A stretch of 64,000 bases of DNA, from positions 310,001 to 374,000 of the forward strand of contig NZ_JACHEF010000002.1 of assembly GCF_014207355.1 (NCBI RefSeq), read 5' to 3'. Made by a program: the position numbers and the translations under genes. Shown in pieces: positions 39,990 to 48,621 of the stretch. The DNA is from Mesorhizobium sangaii (GTDB lineage: Bacteria; Pseudomonadota; Alphaproteobacteria; Rhizobiales; Rhizobiaceae). The notes under the pieces were generated by a model, which worked only from the letters and a program-made list of their open reading frames with translations, made no database searches and was not told the DNA's origin. Numbering within the stretch: the first letter of the stretch is position 1; each line of letters opens with the position of its first letter.

Positions 39990-40346
39990 TCATGACCCCG
40001 GTATGTCGTAGATGGCGCGGACCTCGATCCTGCCGAGTTCGGCCAACGGAATGCCCGCGGCAATGTCCAGCGCCTCGTCGAGATCCTTTGCCTCGACCAT
40101 CACGAAGCCGAGCAACTGCTCCTTGGTTTCAGTGAAGGGCCCATCGGTGACCAGCCGCTTGCCCTGGCGCCGGCGCACGGTTTTGGCTGACGTCACCGAT
40201 TGCAGCGCCTCGGCGACGATCAGCAAGCCTTTCTCCTCAAGCGATCGGTCATAGGCCAGCGAATCGGCGTTGAGCTTGGCCGACCCTGCCGGGGTCAGCG
40301 CATGAAGATCCTTTTCCTCGCCATAGACCAGGCAGACATATTTCAT
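39990..40346 (-). CDS. YCII/DGPF-domain protein
   Basis: 118 aa. YCII-related fold with the hallmark LVTDGPFTETKEQLLGFVMV (DGPF motif) near 68, N-terminal KYVCLVYGEEKDLHAL and the C-terminal IPLAELGRIEVRAI. DGPF proteins often accompany ECF sigma factors, but none is present here. The ATG at 40346 overlaps the stop of the upstream small membrane protein (ATGA), and AAGGGAG lies within that gene. Confidence 0.88.
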   Translation of the reverse strand: MKYVCLVYGEEKDLHALTPAGSAKLNADSLAYDRSLEEKGLLIVAEALQSVTSAKTVRRRQGKRLVTDGPFTETKEQLLGFVMVEAKDLDEALDIAAGIPLAELGRIEVRAIYDIPGS

Positions 40347-40558
40347 TTCGAGCTCCCTTGCTGTGTCGAGGCGACGAGCGTGTCGGCCCGGTCCTTGCCC
40401 GCCGCCGCATGGTCGAGAATGCACACCGCAACCCCGATGATGGCAACCGCCGCCAGAAACCGGCCGAACGCCGGCGCGGGCTGGTGCATCCAGTCGGCCT
40501 CCCGTCCGCCGGCTCCGTGGCCGGCCTTCTTCCAATGCGCACAAAACAGCATATCCAT
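40343..40558 (-). CDS. Small single-span membrane protein
   Basis: 71 aa, not recognised. A basic, His/Trp-containing N-terminus (FCAHWKKAGHGAGGREADWM) precedes one helix (FGRFLAAVAIIGVAVCIL), then a charged tail. GGAGG is 5 bases before the ATG at 40558, and the stop overlaps the YCII gene start, which supports translation. It is divergent from the OsmC gene over 244 bp. Confidence 0.6.
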   Translation of the reverse strand: MDMLFCAHWKKAGHGAGGREADWMHQPAPAFGRFLAAVAIIGVAVCILDHAAAGKDRADTLVASTQQGSSK

Positions 40559-40802
40559 GCGATCCTCCATCCGGCCATCACTTGCGTGGCCGCCCGCAGG
40601 ACGGGCGAGGCGGATCGAAGTCGACATTTTTGCACGCGCATTTTTCAAAAAAAGAATCGAAGCCACCGCCGTCGTGGTCCAAAGAGCGCAGTGGCCTTCG
40701 CGTCTGCGCGCGCTATAGTTGACCGGACGCCGGCCCCAACCCCGATCGCAAGCCCGGCAACCCGCGCCACGACAACCCACCACGACAACCAAGGAGGAAT
40801 TC

Positions 40803-41228
40803 ATGGACCGCACCGCAAACGCCGTCTGGAAAGGCAATCTGAAGGAGGGCAAGGGCACGCTCGATACGCAGAGCGGGACCCTGAAGGGCACGCCCTATTC
40901 GTTCAAGGCGCGCTTCGAGGACGAGAGCGGCAAATCCGGCACCAATCCGGAAGAGCTGATCGCCGCGGCACACGCCGGCTGCTACGCCATGCAGTTTTCG
41001 CATTTCCTGGCCGAAAACGGCACGCCCGCCGCCGAACTCGACGCCAAGGCGGTGGTGACGCTGGTTCCCGGCACCGGCATCACCGGCAGCGCCCTTACCG
41101 TGGTCGGCAAGGTGCCGGGCATCGATGCGGCCAAGTTCAAGGAGCTGGCCGAGAAGGCCAAGGCCGAATGCCCGGTCTCCAAGGCACTCGGCGCCATAAA
41201 AGTGTCGCTAGACGCCAGGCTTGGGTGA
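40803..41228 (+). CDS. OsmC-family peroxiredoxin
   Basis: 141 aa Ohr/OsmC fold, OsmC branch. N-terminal AVWKGNLKEGKGTLDTQSG, the first reactive Cys in AAAHAGCYAMQFSHFLAEN near 60 and the second in AKAECPVSKALGAIKVSLD near 125. Such proteins reduce organic hydroperoxides using dihydrolipoamide. AAGGAGGAATTC precedes the ATG. A terminator at 41248 follows. With ohr at 57268 it is one of two OsmC-superfamily genes in the window, and the only intact one. Confidence 0.92.
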   Translation: MDRTANAVWKGNLKEGKGTLDTQSGTLKGTPYSFKARFEDESGKSGTNPEELIAAAHAGCYAMQFSHFLAENGTPAAELDAKAVVTLVPGTGITGSALTVVGKVPGIDAAKFKELAEKAKAECPVSKALGAIKVSLDARLG

Positions 41229-41247
41229 GAGCTCGGGTTCGATACAG

Positions 41248-41274
41248 AAACGCCGGCTCAAGGGCCGGCGTTTT
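41248..41274 (+). terminator. Terminator after osmC-like gene
   Basis: Stem AAACGCCGGC / GCCGGCGTTT with a 6-base loop, followed by TTGCATTTT. It lies 19 bp after the OsmC stop. Confidence 0.75.
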
Positions 41275-41316
41275 GCATTTTGTAGAAGCATCTTTCGCAA
41301 CGCCGGCGCCGGGTCA

Positions 41317-41467
41317 CCCCCCTCTGCCCTACCGGGCATCTCCCCCTCATGAGGGGGAGATTGGCAGCTTTGCCGTCCTGCCTCATTCAGCGTCGGAGAT
41401 TGGCGAAAGTCGAGGTGACGTCCAATCTCCCCCAAGAGGGGGAGATGTCCGGCAGGACAGAGGGGGG
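41317..41467. repeat. Palindromic element type D, copy 1 (about 150 bp)
   Basis: The left end CCCCCCTCTGCCCTACCGGG and right end TCCGGCAGGACAGAGGGGGG are inverted repeats. Each arm contains its own hairpin (ATCTCCCCCTC...GAGGGGGAGAT). The centre reads GGCAGC...CGTCGGAGATTGGCGAAAG. Two more copies lie at 42168 and 55591. No coding capacity; probably a MITE-like or attenuator repeat. This copy lies between the OsmC gene and yceH. Confidence 0.85.
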
Positions 41468-41496
41468 CGCTGTCCCGCCAGCGTCTCGAATGATTG

Positions 41497-42132
41497 TTAG
41501 CGGCCTTCGCCGGTCAGCGCCTCGATGAGGGCGCGCAGCCTCGCAACTTCTGCCTCGAGGGCGCTGACGCGTTCCTCGAGAGCTGAAGTGCCCGACGGCG
41601 CCTGGTGCACGGCGACGGCCGCGATCTGCACCGCGCCGCTCAGCAGATGCATAAAACGCTCCTCGCGCTGGCCGGGGCCACGCTCGATCAGAACCACCAG
41701 CGGCGGCCTGCGGCCGATCAGCAGATCGAGGTCGGTGCGGAGCGCCTCGATCGACGAAAACCGCGCCATGCGCTCGGCTCGCGCCAGCAATTCATGCGCC
41801 GTCTGCGCGCCGCGCAACAGCATCAGGCCGATCAGCGCGATCTGCGCCGAGGTGAGCGAAAAGCGCTGCGCCACCTGATGCTCGTAGCGCTCGACGCGCG
41901 AGGCGAAGACCTGCCGGACCAGGCCCTTCTGCTCCAACTGGCTCAGCGCCCGCCTGACCTCGACAAGTTCGACCGCCATCACCGGCTCGCGCGCCGTCTT
42001 CTGGTTGGCCGCGGCATGCGCGCCGTTGAGCGTCAGCGGATAGACATCCGGCGTCAGCTCCTTCTTCTCGATCAGGCAGCCGAGCACGCGCGCCTCGACA
42101 GGGGAGAGAATGGGAAGGTCGGTATCTGTCAT
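41497..42132 (-). CDS. YceH family protein (DUF480)
   Basis: 211 aa, two winged-helix domains of the YceH/DUF480 family: LSPVEARVLGCLIEKKELTP with PDVYPLTLNGAHAAANQKTA, then LSQLEQKGLVRQVFASRVER and the second repeat from SLTSAQIALIGLMLLRGAQT. A C-terminal coiled coil (LEERVSALEAEVARLRALIE) ends it. Function unknown, likely DNA-binding. ATG at 42132; the open frame upstream runs into repeat copy 2. The gene is bracketed by two copies of repeat D. Confidence 0.9.
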   Translation of the reverse strand: MTDTDLPILSPVEARVLGCLIEKKELTPDVYPLTLNGAHAAANQKTAREPVMAVELVEVRRALSQLEQKGLVRQVFASRVERYEHQVAQRFSLTSAQIALIGLMLLRGAQTAHELLARAERMARFSSIEALRTDLDLLIGRRPPLVVLIERGPGQREERFMHLLSGAVQIAAVAVHQAPSGTSALEERVSALEAEVARLRALIEALTGEGR

Positions 42133-42167
42133 GGCGTCGCTATCCTTCTGAGGCCGGCGGGACAGCA

Positions 42168-42321
42168 CCCCCTCTGTCCTGCCGGACATCTCCCCCGCAA
42201 GGGGGAGATCGGCAGCTTTAGCGCGGTCAGACCATTCTCGCAAAGTTGGAAATTAGCGAAAGCCGGGATGACGGCCAATCTCCCCCCTTGCGGGGAAGAT
42301 GTCCGGCAGGACAGAGGGGGG
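42168..42321. repeat. Palindromic element type D, copy 2
   Basis: 154 bp with ends CCCCCTCTGTCCTGCCGGAC and GTCCGGCAGGACAGAGGGGG, which are perfect inverted repeats over the outer 20 bases, and internal hairpins (ATCTCCCCC...GGGGGAGAT). It sits between the yceH start and the sdhB stop, so it could act as a terminator or attenuator for the sdhB transcript. Confidence 0.88.
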
Positions 42322-42362
42322 TGGGAAGGATCGCAACGGCTGAGGTGATTTCCCCACTAAAA

Positions 42363-43142
42363 CTACACCCTTCTCTCCACCATCATCTTCTTGATCTCGG
42401 CGATCGCCTTGGCCGGGTTGAGGCCCTTGGGGCAGGTCTGCGCGCAGTTCATGATGGTGTGGCAGCGATAGAGCCGGAACGGGTCTTCGAGATTGTCGAG
42501 CCGCTCGCCCTGGGCTTCGTCACGGGAATCGATCAGCCAGCGATAGGCCTGCAGCAGCGTTGCCGGGCCGAGATAGCGGTCGCCGTTCCACCAGTAGCTC
42601 GGGCAGGAGGTCGAGCAGCAGGCGCACAGGATGCACTCGTAGAGGCCATCCAGCTTCTCACGCTCCTCGTGGCTCTGCAGCCATTCCTTGGCCGGCTCCG
42701 GCGATACCGTCTTCAGCCACGGCTGGATCGAGGCGTGCTGGGCATAGAAATTGGTGAGGTCGGGCACCAGGTCCTTGACCACTTGCATATGCGGCAGTGG
42801 GTATACCTTGACGGCGCCGGAAATGTCGTCGCAGCCTTTGGTGCAGGCGAGTGTGTTGGAGCCGTCGATGTTCATGGCACAGGAGCCGCAGATGCCCTCG
42901 CGGCAAGAGCGGCGCAAGGTCAGCGTCGGATCGATCTTGTTCTTGATCCAGAGCAGTGCGTCGAGCACCATCGGCCCGCAATCGTCCATGTCGACGAAAT
43001 AGCTGTCGATGCGCGGGTTCTCGTCATCGTCCGGCGACCAGCGGTAGATGCGGTACTCGCGCAGATTGGTGGCGCCTTCCGGCTTCGGCCAGGTCTTGCC
43101 CTGCTGGACCTTCGAGTTCTTGGGGAGCGTAAGTTCGACCAT
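42363..43142 (-). CDS. sdhB: Succinate dehydrogenase iron-sulfur subunit
   Basis: 259 aa, the electron-transfer subunit of respiratory complex II. The 2Fe-2S domain has [20 protein letters not shown] near 80; the 4Fe-4S and 3Fe-4S ligands lie in [20 protein letters not shown] and [22 protein letters not shown] at 43142 with AGGCAC upstream. It does not follow sdhA directly: a sulfatase-fold gene, relics and a DUF3052 gene lie between. The first codons have a decayed duplicate at 45231-45296. It may now need its own promoter in the 97-bp gap upstream. Confidence 0.97.
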
Positions 43143-43239
43143 TGGCGTGCCTCTGAACGTGACCTTTTAATCGGCTTCTGGGTGCCAAATCAAGGCGCTA
43201 TCTGGCATCGAACACTTGCCGCCGGTGTGCACCCTGGCA

Positions 43240-44880
43240 TTAATGCGGCTCAGCCTCGGACGCCGCGGCCGTCCGTGCCGGTTTCAGCTGCCAGAATGAT
43301 CTGACGAGCACATCCTCGGCATGGATCGCGTCATCGAACTGGCCCTGTCCAAGTGCCTGGACCAGCGTCGGTCGATCCCCAAGCAGCGAAACGCCAAGGG
43401 CAGCCTGGTCATTTGGGAGCGGCACGCCTAGCGCCTCCAGAATGGAGGGAAATACGTCAATCGTGCCCGAAAGCCCGGTATACGCCTTGGAGGGAATGCC
43501 ATCGCCCGACAGGGAGAAAAAATTGCGCCGTTTAAACGTGTTCAGGCGATCCGTCACCGTGCTCGGCGCGCTGAGGTGGTCACTTTGCAACGCCACAACG
43601 GTGTTCCTCATCAGACCTTCGGCCTCGGCTTTGTGGATGAAGTCTGCGACCAGCATGTTGGTGCATTTCACGGCATGGAGAATATTGGGGGCTTGTGGGG
43701 AAAGTCCTGTCTTGCCGATACATTTGTCAGTCAGGTAGCCATCCGGCGCATGCCCACCACTGACGGCGATCGTCAGCGAGACCGGTTTGCCGTCTCGGTT
43801 CGCGCGCCGCAAAACGTCGAAGCTCATGTCCAGAACCTGGGCGTCATCGGCGCCAAAAGAGCTGCCACGCCCACCGACGGCGGCCACCACTTCGGATCCC
43901 CCAAACAGCGATGAATAGCCATGGGTGGAATAGAATTCTCCCTGACCGGTGAAGCCGAGCGGCCAACCGGAAATGAAGTTCTGCTGATAGCCTCGCGCCT
44001 TCAGAACATCGCCCAGGCAGGTCAGGCCTGGCAGGAATTGCGAATTCTCCTCCATGTACTGGCGCGTTGTGAAATACGTTATTAGCAGCGGCGTTCCACA
44101 GTTGGCGGCGACCATCCCGGAGATGGAGTTGTTGGTGTAGGCAAGTTGCACCATGTTGGTCGCCGAAACGCCACGCCTGTCGAATTCGCGCAGCGGGCCC
44201 GTGACGTCGCCGAACTCCGCCTCGTTCATGTAGGTGCGCTCGGCACTCTCGATGAAAATATGAATGAGGTTCCTTGGCGCGACGGTCTCCGACGCTGTTC
44301 CGGCCGGTTTTGTCAAAGAGGTGATATCGACGAACCGCTTGGACAGGAAATCATGCAGCGGGTTGAGATGGATCGCAGCCGCGATCGGGCGCGTCAGCAT
44401 CGGGTTTGCCGCCAGGAAGAACGCCATCAAGGCAACGTCCAATCTTCGTGTCAGCGTGCCGCGCGCCTTCAGTGCGCCAAGGCCGAAAAGAACGACCAAA
44501 ATGACCAGTATCGTGCTTCCCGTATTCACCAGACATTCGAGAACGACACCGGGCGTGAGAACTCCGGCGTCGACATGCATGAACATCGCGCCCCAATCGA
44601 AATAGCCGAAAACACTTTCGACGTAGACATAGAAAAGGAAGAGAAAACAAGGAATAAGCGACAAGTAGGCGCTGAACCACCTGCTTGTTGGCTGATCCGT
44701 CCTGACCCCTTGGAGGCGATCCAGCAAGAGAAGCGAGCACAGAGCGCCCAGGCCAAGGACCGCCAGCAGCCTTTTCTCCTGAAGATAAACCAGCGACACG
44801 AGCCAGGTGAGCGACCCCACTGTCGCGACGCTGACCAATGATCCAATTGGCCAGCAACGAATAGCATGAAATCCGCGCAT
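43240..44880 (-). CDS. Membrane sulfatase/phosphoglycerol-transferase-like protein
   Basis: 546 aa. Five or so N-terminal membrane helices (to about 160) are followed by a sulfatase/alkaline-phosphatase-fold domain with NLIHIFIESAERTYMNEAEF (metal site region), the AYTNNSISGMVAANCGTPLL nucleophile region, ISGWPLGFTGQGEFYSTHGY, and VALQSDHLSAPSTVTDRL with metal-ligand Asp-His. It resembles the LtaS/MdoB group that transfers phosphoglycerol to envelope glycans; in rhizobia a cyclic-glucan substrate is plausible but unproven. ATG at 44880; an in-frame GTG three codons earlier is possible. Its surroundings look less GC-rich than the sdh genes, suggesting acquisition. Confidence 0.8.
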   Translation of the reverse strand: MRGFHAIRCWPIGSLVSVATVGSLTWLVSLVYLQEKRLLAVLGLGALCSLLLLDRLQGVRTDQPTSRWFSAYLSLIPCFLFLFYVYVESVFGYFDWGAMFMHVDAGVLTPGVVLECLVNTGSTILVILVVLFGLGALKARGTLTRRLDVALMAFFLAANPMLTRPIAAAIHLNPLHDFLSKRFVDITSLTKPAGTASETVAPRNLIHIFIESAERTYMNEAEFGDVTGPLREFDRRGVSATNMVQLAYTNNSISGMVAANCGTPLLITYFTTRQYMEENSQFLPGLTCLGDVLKARGYQQNFISGWPLGFTGQGEFYSTHGYSSLFGGSEVVAAVGGRGSSFGADDAQVLDMSFDVLRRANRDGKPVSLTIAVSGGHAPDGYLTDKCIGKTGLSPQAPNILHAVKCTNMLVADFIHKAEAEGLMRNTVVALQSDHLSAPSTVTDRLNTFKRRNFFSLSGDGIPSKAYTGLSGTIDVFPSILEALGVPLPNDQAALGVSLLGDRPTLVQALGQGQFDDAIHAEDVLVRSFWQLKPARTAAASEAEPH

Positions 44881-45000
44881 ACTTCGCACTCGATCGACGA
44901 TTTCCGAAGTGGATATCGAGAATCACTTAAAGCTATACTAAGGCAATGCTGATGAGTGCAAATATCAAACGGCCAGTTACTTTCGAGATCGCTAATATAC

Positions 45001-45079
45001 GTCGCTCAAAAGTGACCTCGGTTTTGGGCGAACGGCGTGCATGAGCGGTTCGACGTTTCCGTGAAACGGTGAACCGCTC
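45001..45079. repeat. Two adjacent short intergenic repeats
   Basis: GTCGCTCAAAAGTGACCTCG with GTTTTGGGCGAACGG (45001-45042) belongs to the same family as the tandem pair at 60838. Next, GAGCGGTTC...GAACCGCTC (45043-45079) encloses a nested GTTTC/GAAAC hairpin and shares words with the repeat at 30503. They sit directly downstream of the DUF3052 relic and upstream of the sulfatase-like gene. Confidence 0.6.
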
Positions 45080-45230
45080 TAAGCGCATTGTTGTGAGAGA
45101 TGGACGGCCTCGTATTTCAGGCGAGCGCCGAAATTCTCGATCAGACGGGCCAGCCGGTCGATCTGTGCAAAGTCGACAGCGCCAGCCATATCGCAGAGGT
45201 CATCGAAAAGCGCGATAGAGACCGTGCGCC
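45079..45230 (-). pseudogene. DUF3052-like gene fragment
   Basis: On the minus strand this reads TVSIALFDDLCDMAGAVDFA then QIDRLARLIENFGARLKYEA, ending in a TAG at 45079-45081. It aligns with residues 25 to 70 of the intact DUF3052 protein encoded just upstream (TAAFIALPSELDELADAVAF, NVDRLADWSDIAGTTQKYDA). No start codon and no N-terminal or full C-terminal region remain, so it is a relic of a second, diverged copy, fused behind the sdhB relic. Confidence 0.75.
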
Positions 45231-45296
45231 ATCCGGCTTCGGTCAGGTTTTGCCTTGCTGGATCTTCGAATTCTTGGGGAGCGTCAGTTCAACCGT
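45231..45296 (-). pseudogene. sdhB 5'-end relic
   Basis: Minus-strand translation gives [16 protein letters not shown], a stop, then PKPDG. The intact SdhB starts [20 protein letters not shown]. The start codon has become ACG and the Trp codon TGA. Nucleotide identity to 43075-43142 is high over about 65 bases. The relic touches the stop of the DUF3052 gene exactly where a functional sdhB would begin (TAATG-type overlap), marking the ancestral sdhB position. Confidence 0.88.
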
Positions 45297-45733
45297 TACC
45301 TGCGGTCTTTTCGGATGACGAGCTTCAGCCCGGACCAGATTTCATTGACGGCGGCGACTTTCACATCGACCAGGTCGCGCTTCAGCGCCTCGGCGCGAAC
45401 AACACCCTCGGTGACGTCGCTGGCCACCTTCGATGCCTTCTTCGGCCAGGACACCCAGACCATGCCGTCGCGCTTGATCGCCGCCTCGACGTCGCCGAGG
45501 CGATCCTCGATCTCGGCACGCTGTCGGGTGAAGGCATGGACCGCATCGTATTTTTGGGTCGTTCCCGCAATGTCAGACCAATCGGCCAGCCGGTCGACAT
45601 TGGCAAAGGCAACAGCATCGGCCAGCTCATCGAGTTCCGATGGCAGCGCGATGAAGGCGGCGGTCATCCCGTCCTTCAGGCCGAGCTTGGCCGGAAGGGG
45701 CGTAGCGGAATATCCCGAGGCCGCCAGCGCCAT
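45296..45733 (-). CDS. DUF3052 family protein
   Basis: 145 aa. N-terminal SGYSATPLPAKLGLKDGMTA and the central VWVSWPKKASKVASDVTEG followed by GLKLVIRKDRR at the end match DUF3052, small alpha/beta proteins of unknown function. ATG at 45733 is two bases after the sdhA stop, so it is expressed with sdhCDA. Ancestrally it overlapped the sdhB start. A diverged fragment of a second copy lies at 45079-45230. Confidence 0.85.
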   Translation of the reverse strand: MALAASGYSATPLPAKLGLKDGMTAAFIALPSELDELADAVAFANVDRLADWSDIAGTTQKYDAVHAFTRQRAEIEDRLGDVEAAIKRDGMVWVSWPKKASKVASDVTEGVVRAEALKRDLVDVKVAAVNEIWSGLKLVIRKDRR

Positions 45734-45735
45734 GG

Positions 45736-47574
45736 TCAATACACCCTGGCCTTCGGCGCGATCTTGGCGAGGCTGATGCCGCCGTCTTTTTCCGCCAGCA
45801 GCGGCTCGGTATGCACCGGCCGGTAGGACAGCGTCACCTTGCCGTCTTCACTGAGCCGGGCCAGCGTATGCTTGCGCCAGGCCGTGTCGTCGCGCGCCGA
45901 AAAATCTTCCCGCGCATGCGCGCCACGGCTCTCCTTGCGCGCCTCGGCGCTGTAGACCGTGGTGATGGCGTTGGCCATCAGGTTCTCCAGTTCCAGCGTC
46001 TCGACCAGGTCGGAGTTCCAGATCATCGAACGGTCGAACACTTTGATGTCCTTCAGTTCGGTCCAGATTTCCGAAATACGCTTGCAGCCATTCTCCAGCG
46101 ATTCCTGCGTGCGGAACACCGCCGCGTCTTCCTGCATCGCCCGCTGCATTTTTTCGCGCAAGCTTGCCGTCGGTGTCGAGCCGTTGGCGTGGCGGAGCCG
46201 ATCGAAGCGGCCCATGATCTTTTCGACAGAGGCTTCGTTGGGCGCCGGGATCGTCGACTTGCGGTCGATGACCTGGCCGGCCCGGATCGCGGCCGCGCGG
46301 CCGAACACCACCAGGTCGATCAGCGAGTTCGAACCCAGCCGGTTGGCGCCATGCACCGAGGCGCAGCCCGCTTCGCCGACCGCCATCAGCCCGGGCGACA
46401 CCTTGTCCGGGCTCCTCGGCGTCGGGTTGAGCACCTCGCCCCAGTAATTGGTCGGCACGCCGCCCATATTGTAGTGCACCGTCGGCAGCACCGGGATCGG
46501 CTCCTTGGTCAGGTCGACGCCGGCAAAGATCTTCGCCGATTCCGAAATGCCCGGCAGCCGCTCGTGCAGGACGGCCGGATCGAGATGGTCGAGGTGCAGG
46601 AAGATGTGGTCCTTCTTCGGGCCGACGCCGCGCCCTTCGCGGATCTCCAGCGTCATGCAGCGAGAGACGACGTCGCGCGAGGCAAGGTCTTTGGCCGACG
46701 GCGCGTAGCGCTCCATGAAGCGCTCGCCCTCGGAATTGACGAGATAGCCGCCCTCGCCGCGCGCGCCTTCGGTGATCAGGCAGCCGGCGCCATAGATGCC
46801 GGTCGGGTGGAACTGCACGAACTCCATGTCCTGCAGCGGGAAGCCGGCGCGTGCGGCCATGCCGCCGCCGTCGCCGGTGCAGGTGTGCGCCGAAGTCGCC
46901 GAGAAATAGGAGCGGCCATAGCCGCCGGTCGCCAGCACCACCATCTTGGCCGAGAAGCGGTGGATGGTGCCGTCGTCGAGGTTCCAGGCGACGACGCCGG
47001 TGCAGGTGCCGTCCGGCTCCATGATCAGGTCGAGCGCGAAATACTCGATGAAGAACTGCGCGTTGTTCTTCAGCGACTGGCCGTAGAGCGTGTGCAGGAT
47101 GGCGTGGCCGGTGCGGTCGGCGGCCGCGCAGGTGCGCTGCACCGGCGGGCCTTCGCCGTAGTTCATCATGTGGCCGCCGAACGGCCGCTGGTAGATCTTG
47201 CCCTCTTCGGTGCGCGAGAACGGCACGCCATAGTGCTCGAGCTCGTAGACCGCCGCCGGCGCTTCGCGCACCAGATATTCCATGGCGTCGACATCGCCCA
47301 GCCAGTCCGAGCCCTTGACGGTGTCGTACATATGCCACTGCCAGGAATCAGGCCCCATATTGGACAGCGAAGCGGCAATGCCGCCTTGCGCCGCCACCGT
47401 GTGCGAGCGGGTCGGGAACACCTTGGTGATGCAGGCGGTGCGCAGGCCCTGTTCGGCCATGCCGAGTGTGGCGCGCAGGCCGGCACCACCGGCGCCGACG
47501 ACCACGACGTCGAATTTGTGGTCGACATAGGTGTAAGCGGAACCGGTGTTGGCTCCTTTTGTGTCCTTGGCCAA
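45736..47574 (-). CDS. sdhA: Succinate dehydrogenase flavoprotein subunit
   Basis: 612 aa. Oxidises succinate to fumarate in the TCA cycle and complex II. FAD fold [20 protein letters not shown], covalent FAD His in [40 protein letters not shown] and [20 protein letters not shown]. Start is TTG at 47574, supported by GGAGG five bases upstream within the end of sdhD and by the conserved N-terminus. It is immediately downstream of sdhD. Confidence 0.97.
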
Positions 47575-47575
47575 C

Positions 47576-47971
47576 TCAGCCTCCGAATGTCAGCTTGAGC
47601 AGGGCGAAGATCGAGGCGACGCCGACCGCTATGGTGAAAAACGTATTGAGCGCGATAAGCGCCAGCTTCATGCCCTCGCCATGCACGTAGTCCTCGATGA
47701 TCACCTGCATGCCGAGCCGCATATGGATGACCCCCGAGATGAGCACCAGGGCCACCACCAGCGCCACGAGCGGATTGGCGAGTGCTGCCCGCACGTCCGC
47801 ATAGCCGGCGCCGTTGAGTGCGATCAGGAAACCGACGAAGAACAGCATCAGCGGGATGTTGGCGATGGCGGTGAGGCGCTGGCGCCAGAAATGCCCGGTG
47901 CCCTCGCGGGCGGAACCCAGGCCGCGGACTTTCGCCAGCGGCGTGCGCATATCGGTCTTTCCAGTGCTCAT
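47576..47971 (-). CDS. sdhD: Succinate dehydrogenase membrane anchor subunit
   Basis: 131 aa, three membrane helices (about 31-51, 60-84 and 104-127). N-terminal [20 protein letters not shown] with [19 protein letters not shown] is the alphaproteobacterial SdhD signature, and [20 protein letters not shown] contains the haem/quinone-region His and Asp-Tyr. ATG 47971 is 2 bp after the sdhC stop. It anchors SdhAB and binds ubiquinone with SdhC. Confidence 0.94.
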
Positions 47972-47973
47972 GA

Positions 47974-48378
47974 TCAGGCTCCCCGCGCCATATAGCCCGC
48001 GATCCAGATCAGCAGCGTGAGCAGGACCGAGCCGGCCAGCGTCGCCCAGGCGATCTTCGAGGCCGTGTGCTTCTCGAGGCCAGCGCCGGTATCCCATACC
48101 AGGTGGCGCACGCCACCGAGCATGTGGTGCATCAGCGCCCAGGTGTAGCCGAACAGGATCAGCCGGCCGAGCCAGGTGCCGAAGGCCCAGTTGACCCAGT
48201 CGAACGTCGCCTGTGAGCTTGCCGCCGCCATCAGCCATATGGCAACCAGCAGCGTACCGAAATAGAGCGCGCCGCCGGTGATGCGATGGATGATCGACAT
48301 CGTCATGGTGATCGGCGGCCGGTACACGGTCAGGTGCGGCGAAAGCGGTCTTGCGCGGGTGGCTGGTGATTTGCTCAT
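47974..48378 (-). CDS. sdhC: Succinate dehydrogenase cytochrome b556 subunit
   Basis: 134 aa, three membrane helices. [20 protein letters not shown] with [17 protein letters not shown] is the quinone-site signature, and the haem-ligand His lies in [20 protein letters not shown] 48378 has GGGGGAG upstream. First gene of the sdh unit; a palindrome lies about 140 bp upstream at 48515. Confidence 0.95.
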
Positions 48379-48514
48379 GGCTCCCCCAGTTCGGCGTCCC
48401 TGGAGCCTCAGGTGGAAATGCGGCATTGCCGCTTCCGGATGCGACTTCGGACAGCCGGTTTCTAATGCTCTTTTTGCACCGCGTCAAAGCCAGAAAACCG
48501 TTTCGAAAACGTAA

Positions 48515-48529
48515 TTTAGTCTGACTAAA
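48515..48529. promoter_or_regulatory. TTTAGTC-T-GACTAAA palindrome upstream of sdhCDA
   Basis: Perfect 7-bp inverted repeat around one T, in an AT-rich stretch (AACGTAATTTAGTC) about 137 bp before sdhC. It resembles the TTTAGAA-type boxes bound by the iron regulator Irr in rhizobia but does not match exactly. Complex II is iron-rich, so iron control is plausible. Confidence 0.5.
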
Positions 48530-48621
48530 AGGCAGGCGCGGGGCTTCAATCGATTAGGGGTGATTGGGCCAAAGCCGGCTCGCTATCGCTGCAGTGCAAC
48601 ATACCGGTCCGACATAGCCCT

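Follow-up and report, generated by a model that had tools for sequence, protein, structure and literature searches.

How did sdhB of Mesorhizobium sangaii come to lie apart from the rest of its operon, and what is the DNA that now stands between them? The window, that is the whole stretch of 64,000 nucleotides that was analysed, carries the locus on its minus strand in the order sdhC, sdhD, sdhA, DUF3052 gene, sdhB relic, DUF3052 fragment, repeats, sulfatase-fold gene, sdhB and DUF480 gene. An earlier note had pointed out that a sulfatase-fold gene, repeats and relics separate sdhB from sdhCDA and the DUF3052 gene, and the gene order bears this out. All features described below are on the minus strand, except where no strand is assigned. 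Genomes of the genus are labelled with G-numbers, G000 being the window genome, and the sdh-locus regions fetched for comparison with L-numbers.

The native end of the operon is formed by sdhA (45736-47574), placed by its reading frame, gene order and nucleotide identity, and by an intact DUF3052 gene (45296-45739), which scores 22.8 bits against PF11253, for a cut-off of 22.7. In relatives that have DUF3052, sdhB is usually the next gene. Here the place is taken by a relic of the sdhB 5' end (45226-45297), which is 88% identical over 72 nt, ungapped, to 43072-43143. Its local score against sdhB is 99, far above the maximum of 22 among 200 shuffles, so that the two segments align as the earlier note had expected. 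The two changes claimed for it, of the start from ATG to ACG and of a Trp codon from TGG to an in-frame TGA, are both present. The relic follows directly on the DUF3052 stop, where relatives have an intact sdhB, and is therefore the former start of sdhB. The intact and native sdhB (42363-43142) is the sole copy in the genome at E <= 1e-60, and is followed by its native neighbour, the DUF480 gene (41497-42132), identified by gene order and nucleotide identity.

Next to the relic is a fragment of a second DUF3052 gene (45085-45225), covering approximately codons 16-71 and truncated at both ends. This part of the earlier note also stands, in that the fragment aligns weakly yet above chance: its nucleotide local score of 46 exceeds that of all 200 shuffles (at most 30), and at the protein level E is 8.1e-4 for the window genome and 3.9e-4 for G048. 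Of the 146 genomes of the genus searched with the protein, these two and G144 alone gave a second DUF3052 match, that of G144 being weak and having three stops.

Beyond the fragment there is a hairpin (45043-45079) and an adjoining stretch (44990-45045), neither with an assigned strand. When a 411-nt query was searched against its own genome, 40 of 96 candidates were scored matches; one is the place itself and one is sdhB, and the remaining 38 fall on the hairpin or on the adjacent stretch down to about 44990, which are therefore dispersed repeats. The region upstream of the sulfatase-fold gene (44890-45027) is also conserved at 18 further copies from the fetched regions, with 72-85% over 62-161 nt, and the tail 3' of the gene (43158-43239) partly resembles the 3' flank of other copies. 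The tail is followed by a new sdhB leader (43143-43157), with AGAGG a few bases ahead of the ATG, which is common to G048. Among the 146 genomes, the full 97-nt spacer before sdhB was found only in G000 and G048. The leader pattern matched one of 297 genomes of the family, the window's own, in a sample with few genomes of the genus, G048 not among them. Rfam gave no match at the gathering score in 40000-48600. A pattern scan of 42000-45800 found two promoter-like sites (1.1 expected) and eight terminator-like sites (3.6 expected, sd 2.1); the 97-nt spacer before sdhB contains none of them.

Gene order in the genus sets this arrangement in context. All 146 genomes have sdhB, and its region was fetched from 59 of the other 145, among them every bearer of the sulfatase-fold gene. 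The 59 are the top-scoring sdhB matches minus G138 and G087, plus G005; the other 86 genomes are outside the comparison of gene order. On contigs that extend far enough, the genes usually run sdhA-(DUF3052)-sdhB-DUF480-OsmC. Counting the window, 41 of the 60 loci are without the sulfatase-fold gene, 17 have it downstream of sdhB, and two have it upstream. The upstream position is seen together with the relic in the window genome and in M. sophorae ICMP 19535 (G048) only, so that the order of the window was not found in any relative without the relic.

The interval between sdhA and sdhB is 438-448 nt, with DUF3052, in 44 of the 60 loci. DUF3052 is absent in 11, and in ten of these sdhA and sdhB are under 50 nt apart. 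A family search with PF11253, whose threshold left out even the gene of the window, matched one of 247 genomes and is therefore uninformative. The two genes lie further apart in G007, G089, G036, G048 and the window. G036 (M. norvegicum 10.2.2) was looked at closely on account of the roughly 1 kb that it has between DUF3052 and sdhB (L034:4057-5016). The insert is an unrelated ORF of around 300 aa without a match among the other fetched regions; a duplication was rejected, and at this locus the sdh operon has been opened independently, for a second time.

Several smaller irregularities were seen at other loci. In G049, G109 and G050 (L050, L065 and L075) the gap between sdhA and sdhB is just 42-43 nt; in G049 and G050 it looks like fused DUF3052 ends forming a short ORF, and in G109 no more than the 3' end of DUF3052 is clear. 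A small ORF, lipoprotein-like by eye, lies between sdhA and DUF3052 or sdhB in G007, G089 and G126 (L045:4285-4620, L071:4295-4618 and L051:4718-5056); that of G007 has no Pfam match. The sdhB-DUF480 interval can hold other cargo, namely a GntR/aminotransferase-type regulator (L077:6120-8986), a DUF983 gene (L041:7538-7984) and a RlaP-family gene (L047:5834-6649).

Which of the parts is the newcomer? By nucleotide identity, the genome closest to the window for sdhD, both sdhA halves, DUF3052, whole sdhB and DUF480 is G048, after which come G021 and then G134 (level with G021 for the sdhA 3' half), and these last two genomes are without the sulfatase-fold gene. The ranking is less clean when the sdhB halves are taken singly, and for sdhC the nearest is G021, with G134 behind G059 and G029. 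A foreign sdhB was considered and rejected, the gene being native as a whole. The spacer between sdhB and DUF480 (42133-42362), which contains a dispersed repeat, shares homology (74-88%) with the corresponding spacer in genomes where the sulfatase-fold gene is missing, G021 and G134 included, part of this likeness being the dispersed repeat, which is also found in the spacers of the downstream-type G121 and G013. From the identity ranks and the spacer homology, it would most simply appear that sdhB and its downstream side are in their old place, and that the new DNA is upstream. The same spacer has a 38-nt inverted repeat (97%) at 42168-42320, and similar stretches occur in the spacers of many relatives.

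The sulfatase-fold gene (43240-44889, intact) has a different history. Its tree, made from 20 copies with G013 left out because its frame is broken, groups the window and G048 copies with those of G005 and G084 (98/100) and not with G029/G036. In an rpoB tree of 30 genomes, which leaves 12 of its 27 inner branches unresolved and includes three partial rows, the window and G048 go with G021/G134 (81/85) and G005 is in a different clade. The conflict rests mainly on G005, because G084 shares a larger rpoB clade with the window. In a tree of sdhA and most of sdhB from 60 genomes, the upstream arrangement forms one clade (100/100) that adjoins G021/G134 (100/97); rpoB and the sdh flanks are the whole basis for the species relations used here. 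The same tree requires 14 changes for the downstream arrangement, at least 11 of them forced by well-supported branches, which is about as many as for shuffled labels (14.8 on average, with 184 of 500 shuffles as low as 14). The earlier claim that the gene was gained is therefore upheld: its presence is patchy, and its tree conflicts with those of rpoB and the flanks, which marks it as horizontally acquired.

These comparisons also bear on the idea that the gene lay downstream of sdhB in an ancestor, and that a tandem duplication of sdhB and the gene was followed by loss of the first sdhB and the second gene copy. Downstream is the commonest position in the genus, which is in favour of such an ancestor. 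Against it, the sister genomes G021 and G134 are without the gene, they resemble the window in the sdhB-DUF480 spacer (with the caveat of the shared dispersed repeat), the window copy groups with G005/G084 rather than G029/G036, and ahead of the window gene there is just one 18-nt match to DUF480 (E 0.001). On the spacer, the gene tree and the DUF480 scan, we rejected this descent as improbable.

The product of the gene is probably a membrane enzyme that decorates cell-envelope sugars. The N-terminal third is hydrophobic (by eye) and is followed by a PF00884 domain (E 2e-31, residues 206-489). The only NCBIfam matches are to two phosphoglycerol transferase I models, NF003000 and NF009027, with 166.5 and 165.9 bits, and the curated equivalog cut-offs of 574 and 572 bits are not reached. 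The protein has 549 aa, and the profiles 763 and 703. The only sequence match to a solved structure at E <= 0.001 is 3lxq (VP1736), with E 9.9e-7. The protein thus has in common with the phosphoglycerol transferase I OpgB/MdoB the PF00884 domain and its sole NCBIfam matches, and differs in its far lower score and shorter length; an OpgB-like role, with periplasmic glucans as the substrate, is what these matches suggest.

At E <= 1e-30 the gene was found in 20 of the 146 genomes of the genus and not in the other 126, which rules out a newcomer peculiar to the window genome. Seventeen of the bearers have it downstream of sdhB, two upstream, and one (G084) only elsewhere; G071 has a second copy elsewhere in the genome. 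Of the 297 genomes sampled from the family, 13 match at E <= 1e-60, the 11 outside the genus at 30-35% identity. Between species the gene is under purifying selection, with dN/dS of 0.19-0.28 in five pairs from different species; the higher values in the two closest pairs, 0.61 for G000-G048 (based on just 14 changes) and 0.45 for one G071 copy against the other, count against this reading. In G013 (M. erdmanii USDA 3471; L063) the gene is in two overlapping pieces, as by a frameshift.

Since the insert is flanked by direct repeats of 72 nt and its target gene is intact, one might suppose a site-specific mobile element that integrated at the sdhB 5' end and used the repeats as attachment sites. 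However, no integrase or transposase was found among the ORFs of the 2.1 kb insert, in which the sulfatase-fold ORF, the sole long coding one, was the only ORF scanned with profiles. The copies elsewhere in G071 and G084 match the repeat only by chance-level hits of 10-18 nt, and the DUF480 cases discussed below also disfavour such an element. With no recombinase in it, the element was rejected, and we give it hardly any credence.

The two carriers of the upstream arrangement differ little within it. Between G000 and G048 the block 45325-43072 has 19 differences in about 2254 sites and one 2-nt gap; the corresponding counts for whole genes are 47/1839 in sdhA, 28/444 in DUF3052 and 27/780 in sdhB. 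The block edges were chosen after seeing the mismatches, and a test on synonymous sites is independent of them: it gives 5/417 differences in the sulfatase-fold gene against 85/735 in sdhA, DUF3052 and sdhB together (p 2.2e-12), with dS of 0.012 in the gene and 0.10-0.19 in the flanking genes. This contrast shows that the block passed between the window lineage and M. sophorae after their split. There are no mismatches in 43264-43072 and five within 43071-43056, which is compatible with a right edge at the end of the 72-nt repeat (43072), with no closer fix.

How the block was first put together is less certain. We consider the best explanation, in which we have modest confidence, to be a one-sided insertion of a horizontally acquired segment with a later exchange. 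An acquired segment with the OpgB-like membrane gene would have inserted between DUF3052 and sdhB, in an ancestor of the window lineage or in a donor to that lineage. In the donor, the gene would already have entered the DUF3052 gene upstream of sdhB. The left joint would be illegitimate, falling inside the 5' end of the recipient sdhB (at about nt 61-72) and joining it to the incoming DUF3052 fragment; the right side would have been joined by homology in sdhB, so that a complete sdhB was kept and a dead stub of 72 nt remained. The block would later have passed between the window species and M. sophorae by homologous recombination. By inspection, the left joint connects sdhB nt ~61-72 to the DUF3052 fragment with a few shared bases, and the right side is in sdhB. 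A donor with the order DUF3052 fragment-gene-sdhB was not found in the 146 genomes of the genus or in the family sample of 297, which holds few of the genus. At nt 34 the intact sdhB has G and the relic A; G occurs in 14 of 60 sdhB genes, including those of the window, G048 and G005, and A is shared by the relic with G021, G134, G029 and G036. This pattern may be a weak hint that the intact sdhB has a donor-type start.

The earlier note had proposed a different origin, by tandem duplication of the DUF3052-sdhB segment. A deletion would then have fused the first sdhB copy (at nt ~72) to the second DUF3052 copy (at codon ~20), and the gene would have inserted into what was left of the latter. 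The remains fit this history: relic, DUF3052 fragment, (gene) and sdhB is the order to be expected of its remnant, both relics are oriented with the operon, and a duplication with deletion could leave the same joints. The duplication is thus possible and is not required. It needs three events, and searches of the 146 genomes found neither an intermediate nor a genome with two DUF3052-sdhB copies. Nor is the fragment clearly nearer to the DUF3052 of its own lineage. Among 49 DUF3052 genes ranked by local score, G029 comes first, G134 is 11th, G048 13th, G000 36th and G021 40th, which is not contrary to a duplication either, and site tests on the lineage of the fragment gave p 0.4-1. We therefore regard the tandem duplication as unlikely, while keeping it as an alternative. 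One-sided insertion fits best, since it reaches a partial sdhB copy in fewer steps, with a single transfer, and agrees with what is seen at the neighbouring DUF480 gene.

In 11 of the 17 genomes with the sulfatase-fold gene downstream of sdhB, a truncated 5' relic of DUF480 lies between sdhB and the gene, and an intact DUF480 follows the gene. This is the same signature, a truncated copy ahead and an intact copy behind, with another target gene. The longest of these relics extend to about nt 300-355, counted from codon 5. A relic was counted at a best E <= 1e-10, and any DUF480 match at all was present in 15 of the 17. G024, G027, G094 and G013 were not counted, their matches being few, short or in the spacer, and G018 and G121, both of the downstream type, gave no match. 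The relic is thus absent (two) or too weak (four) in six of the 17 cases, which speaks against one-sided insertion. A locus without the sulfatase-fold gene, that of G025, has a weak match to the DUF480 relic (E 5.5e-4). The DUF480 pattern may come from one old event that spread.

On the basis of these observations we tentatively suggest, as an idea that could well be wrong, that the surroundings of sdhB in Mesorhizobium are a recombination hotspot, in which the gene of an envelope-sugar enzyme is repeatedly gained and lost, its entries leaving in front of it a stub, truncated at the 3' end, of whichever gene comes next (sdhB or DUF480). If this is true, one-sided insertions that opened a core operon and spared the core gene can be read from the stubs. 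A core TCA operon has been opened here by the traffic of an accessory gene, with its essential gene intact, and the sequence relics are material for the study of one-sided recombination in nature. Envelope glucans matter in legume symbiosis, and the patchy OpgB-like gene may mark changing envelope glucans.

A literature search of titles and the starts of abstracts found no description of such a split of the sdh operon. The split adds one more case to a type of gene shuffling already known and is not a new system, because in related species the gene is found close by, at another position of the locus. The closest comparison is with the type VI secretion (T6SS) effector genes of Vibrio cholerae. 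Something akin to homology-facilitated illegitimate recombination is proposed there for gene displacement, with older genes retained, and a later spread of such blocks by homologous recombination is inferred (PMC5361080). The two cases have in common foreign genes and older remains alongside, and homology at one end with an illegitimate joint at the other, as proposed for Vibrio, is what the favoured explanation would imply for Mesorhizobium. They differ in that the Mesorhizobium insert has no known role in competition, and in that the target here is a core metabolic operon, in which the displaced gene is complete and only a 5' stub marks its old place.
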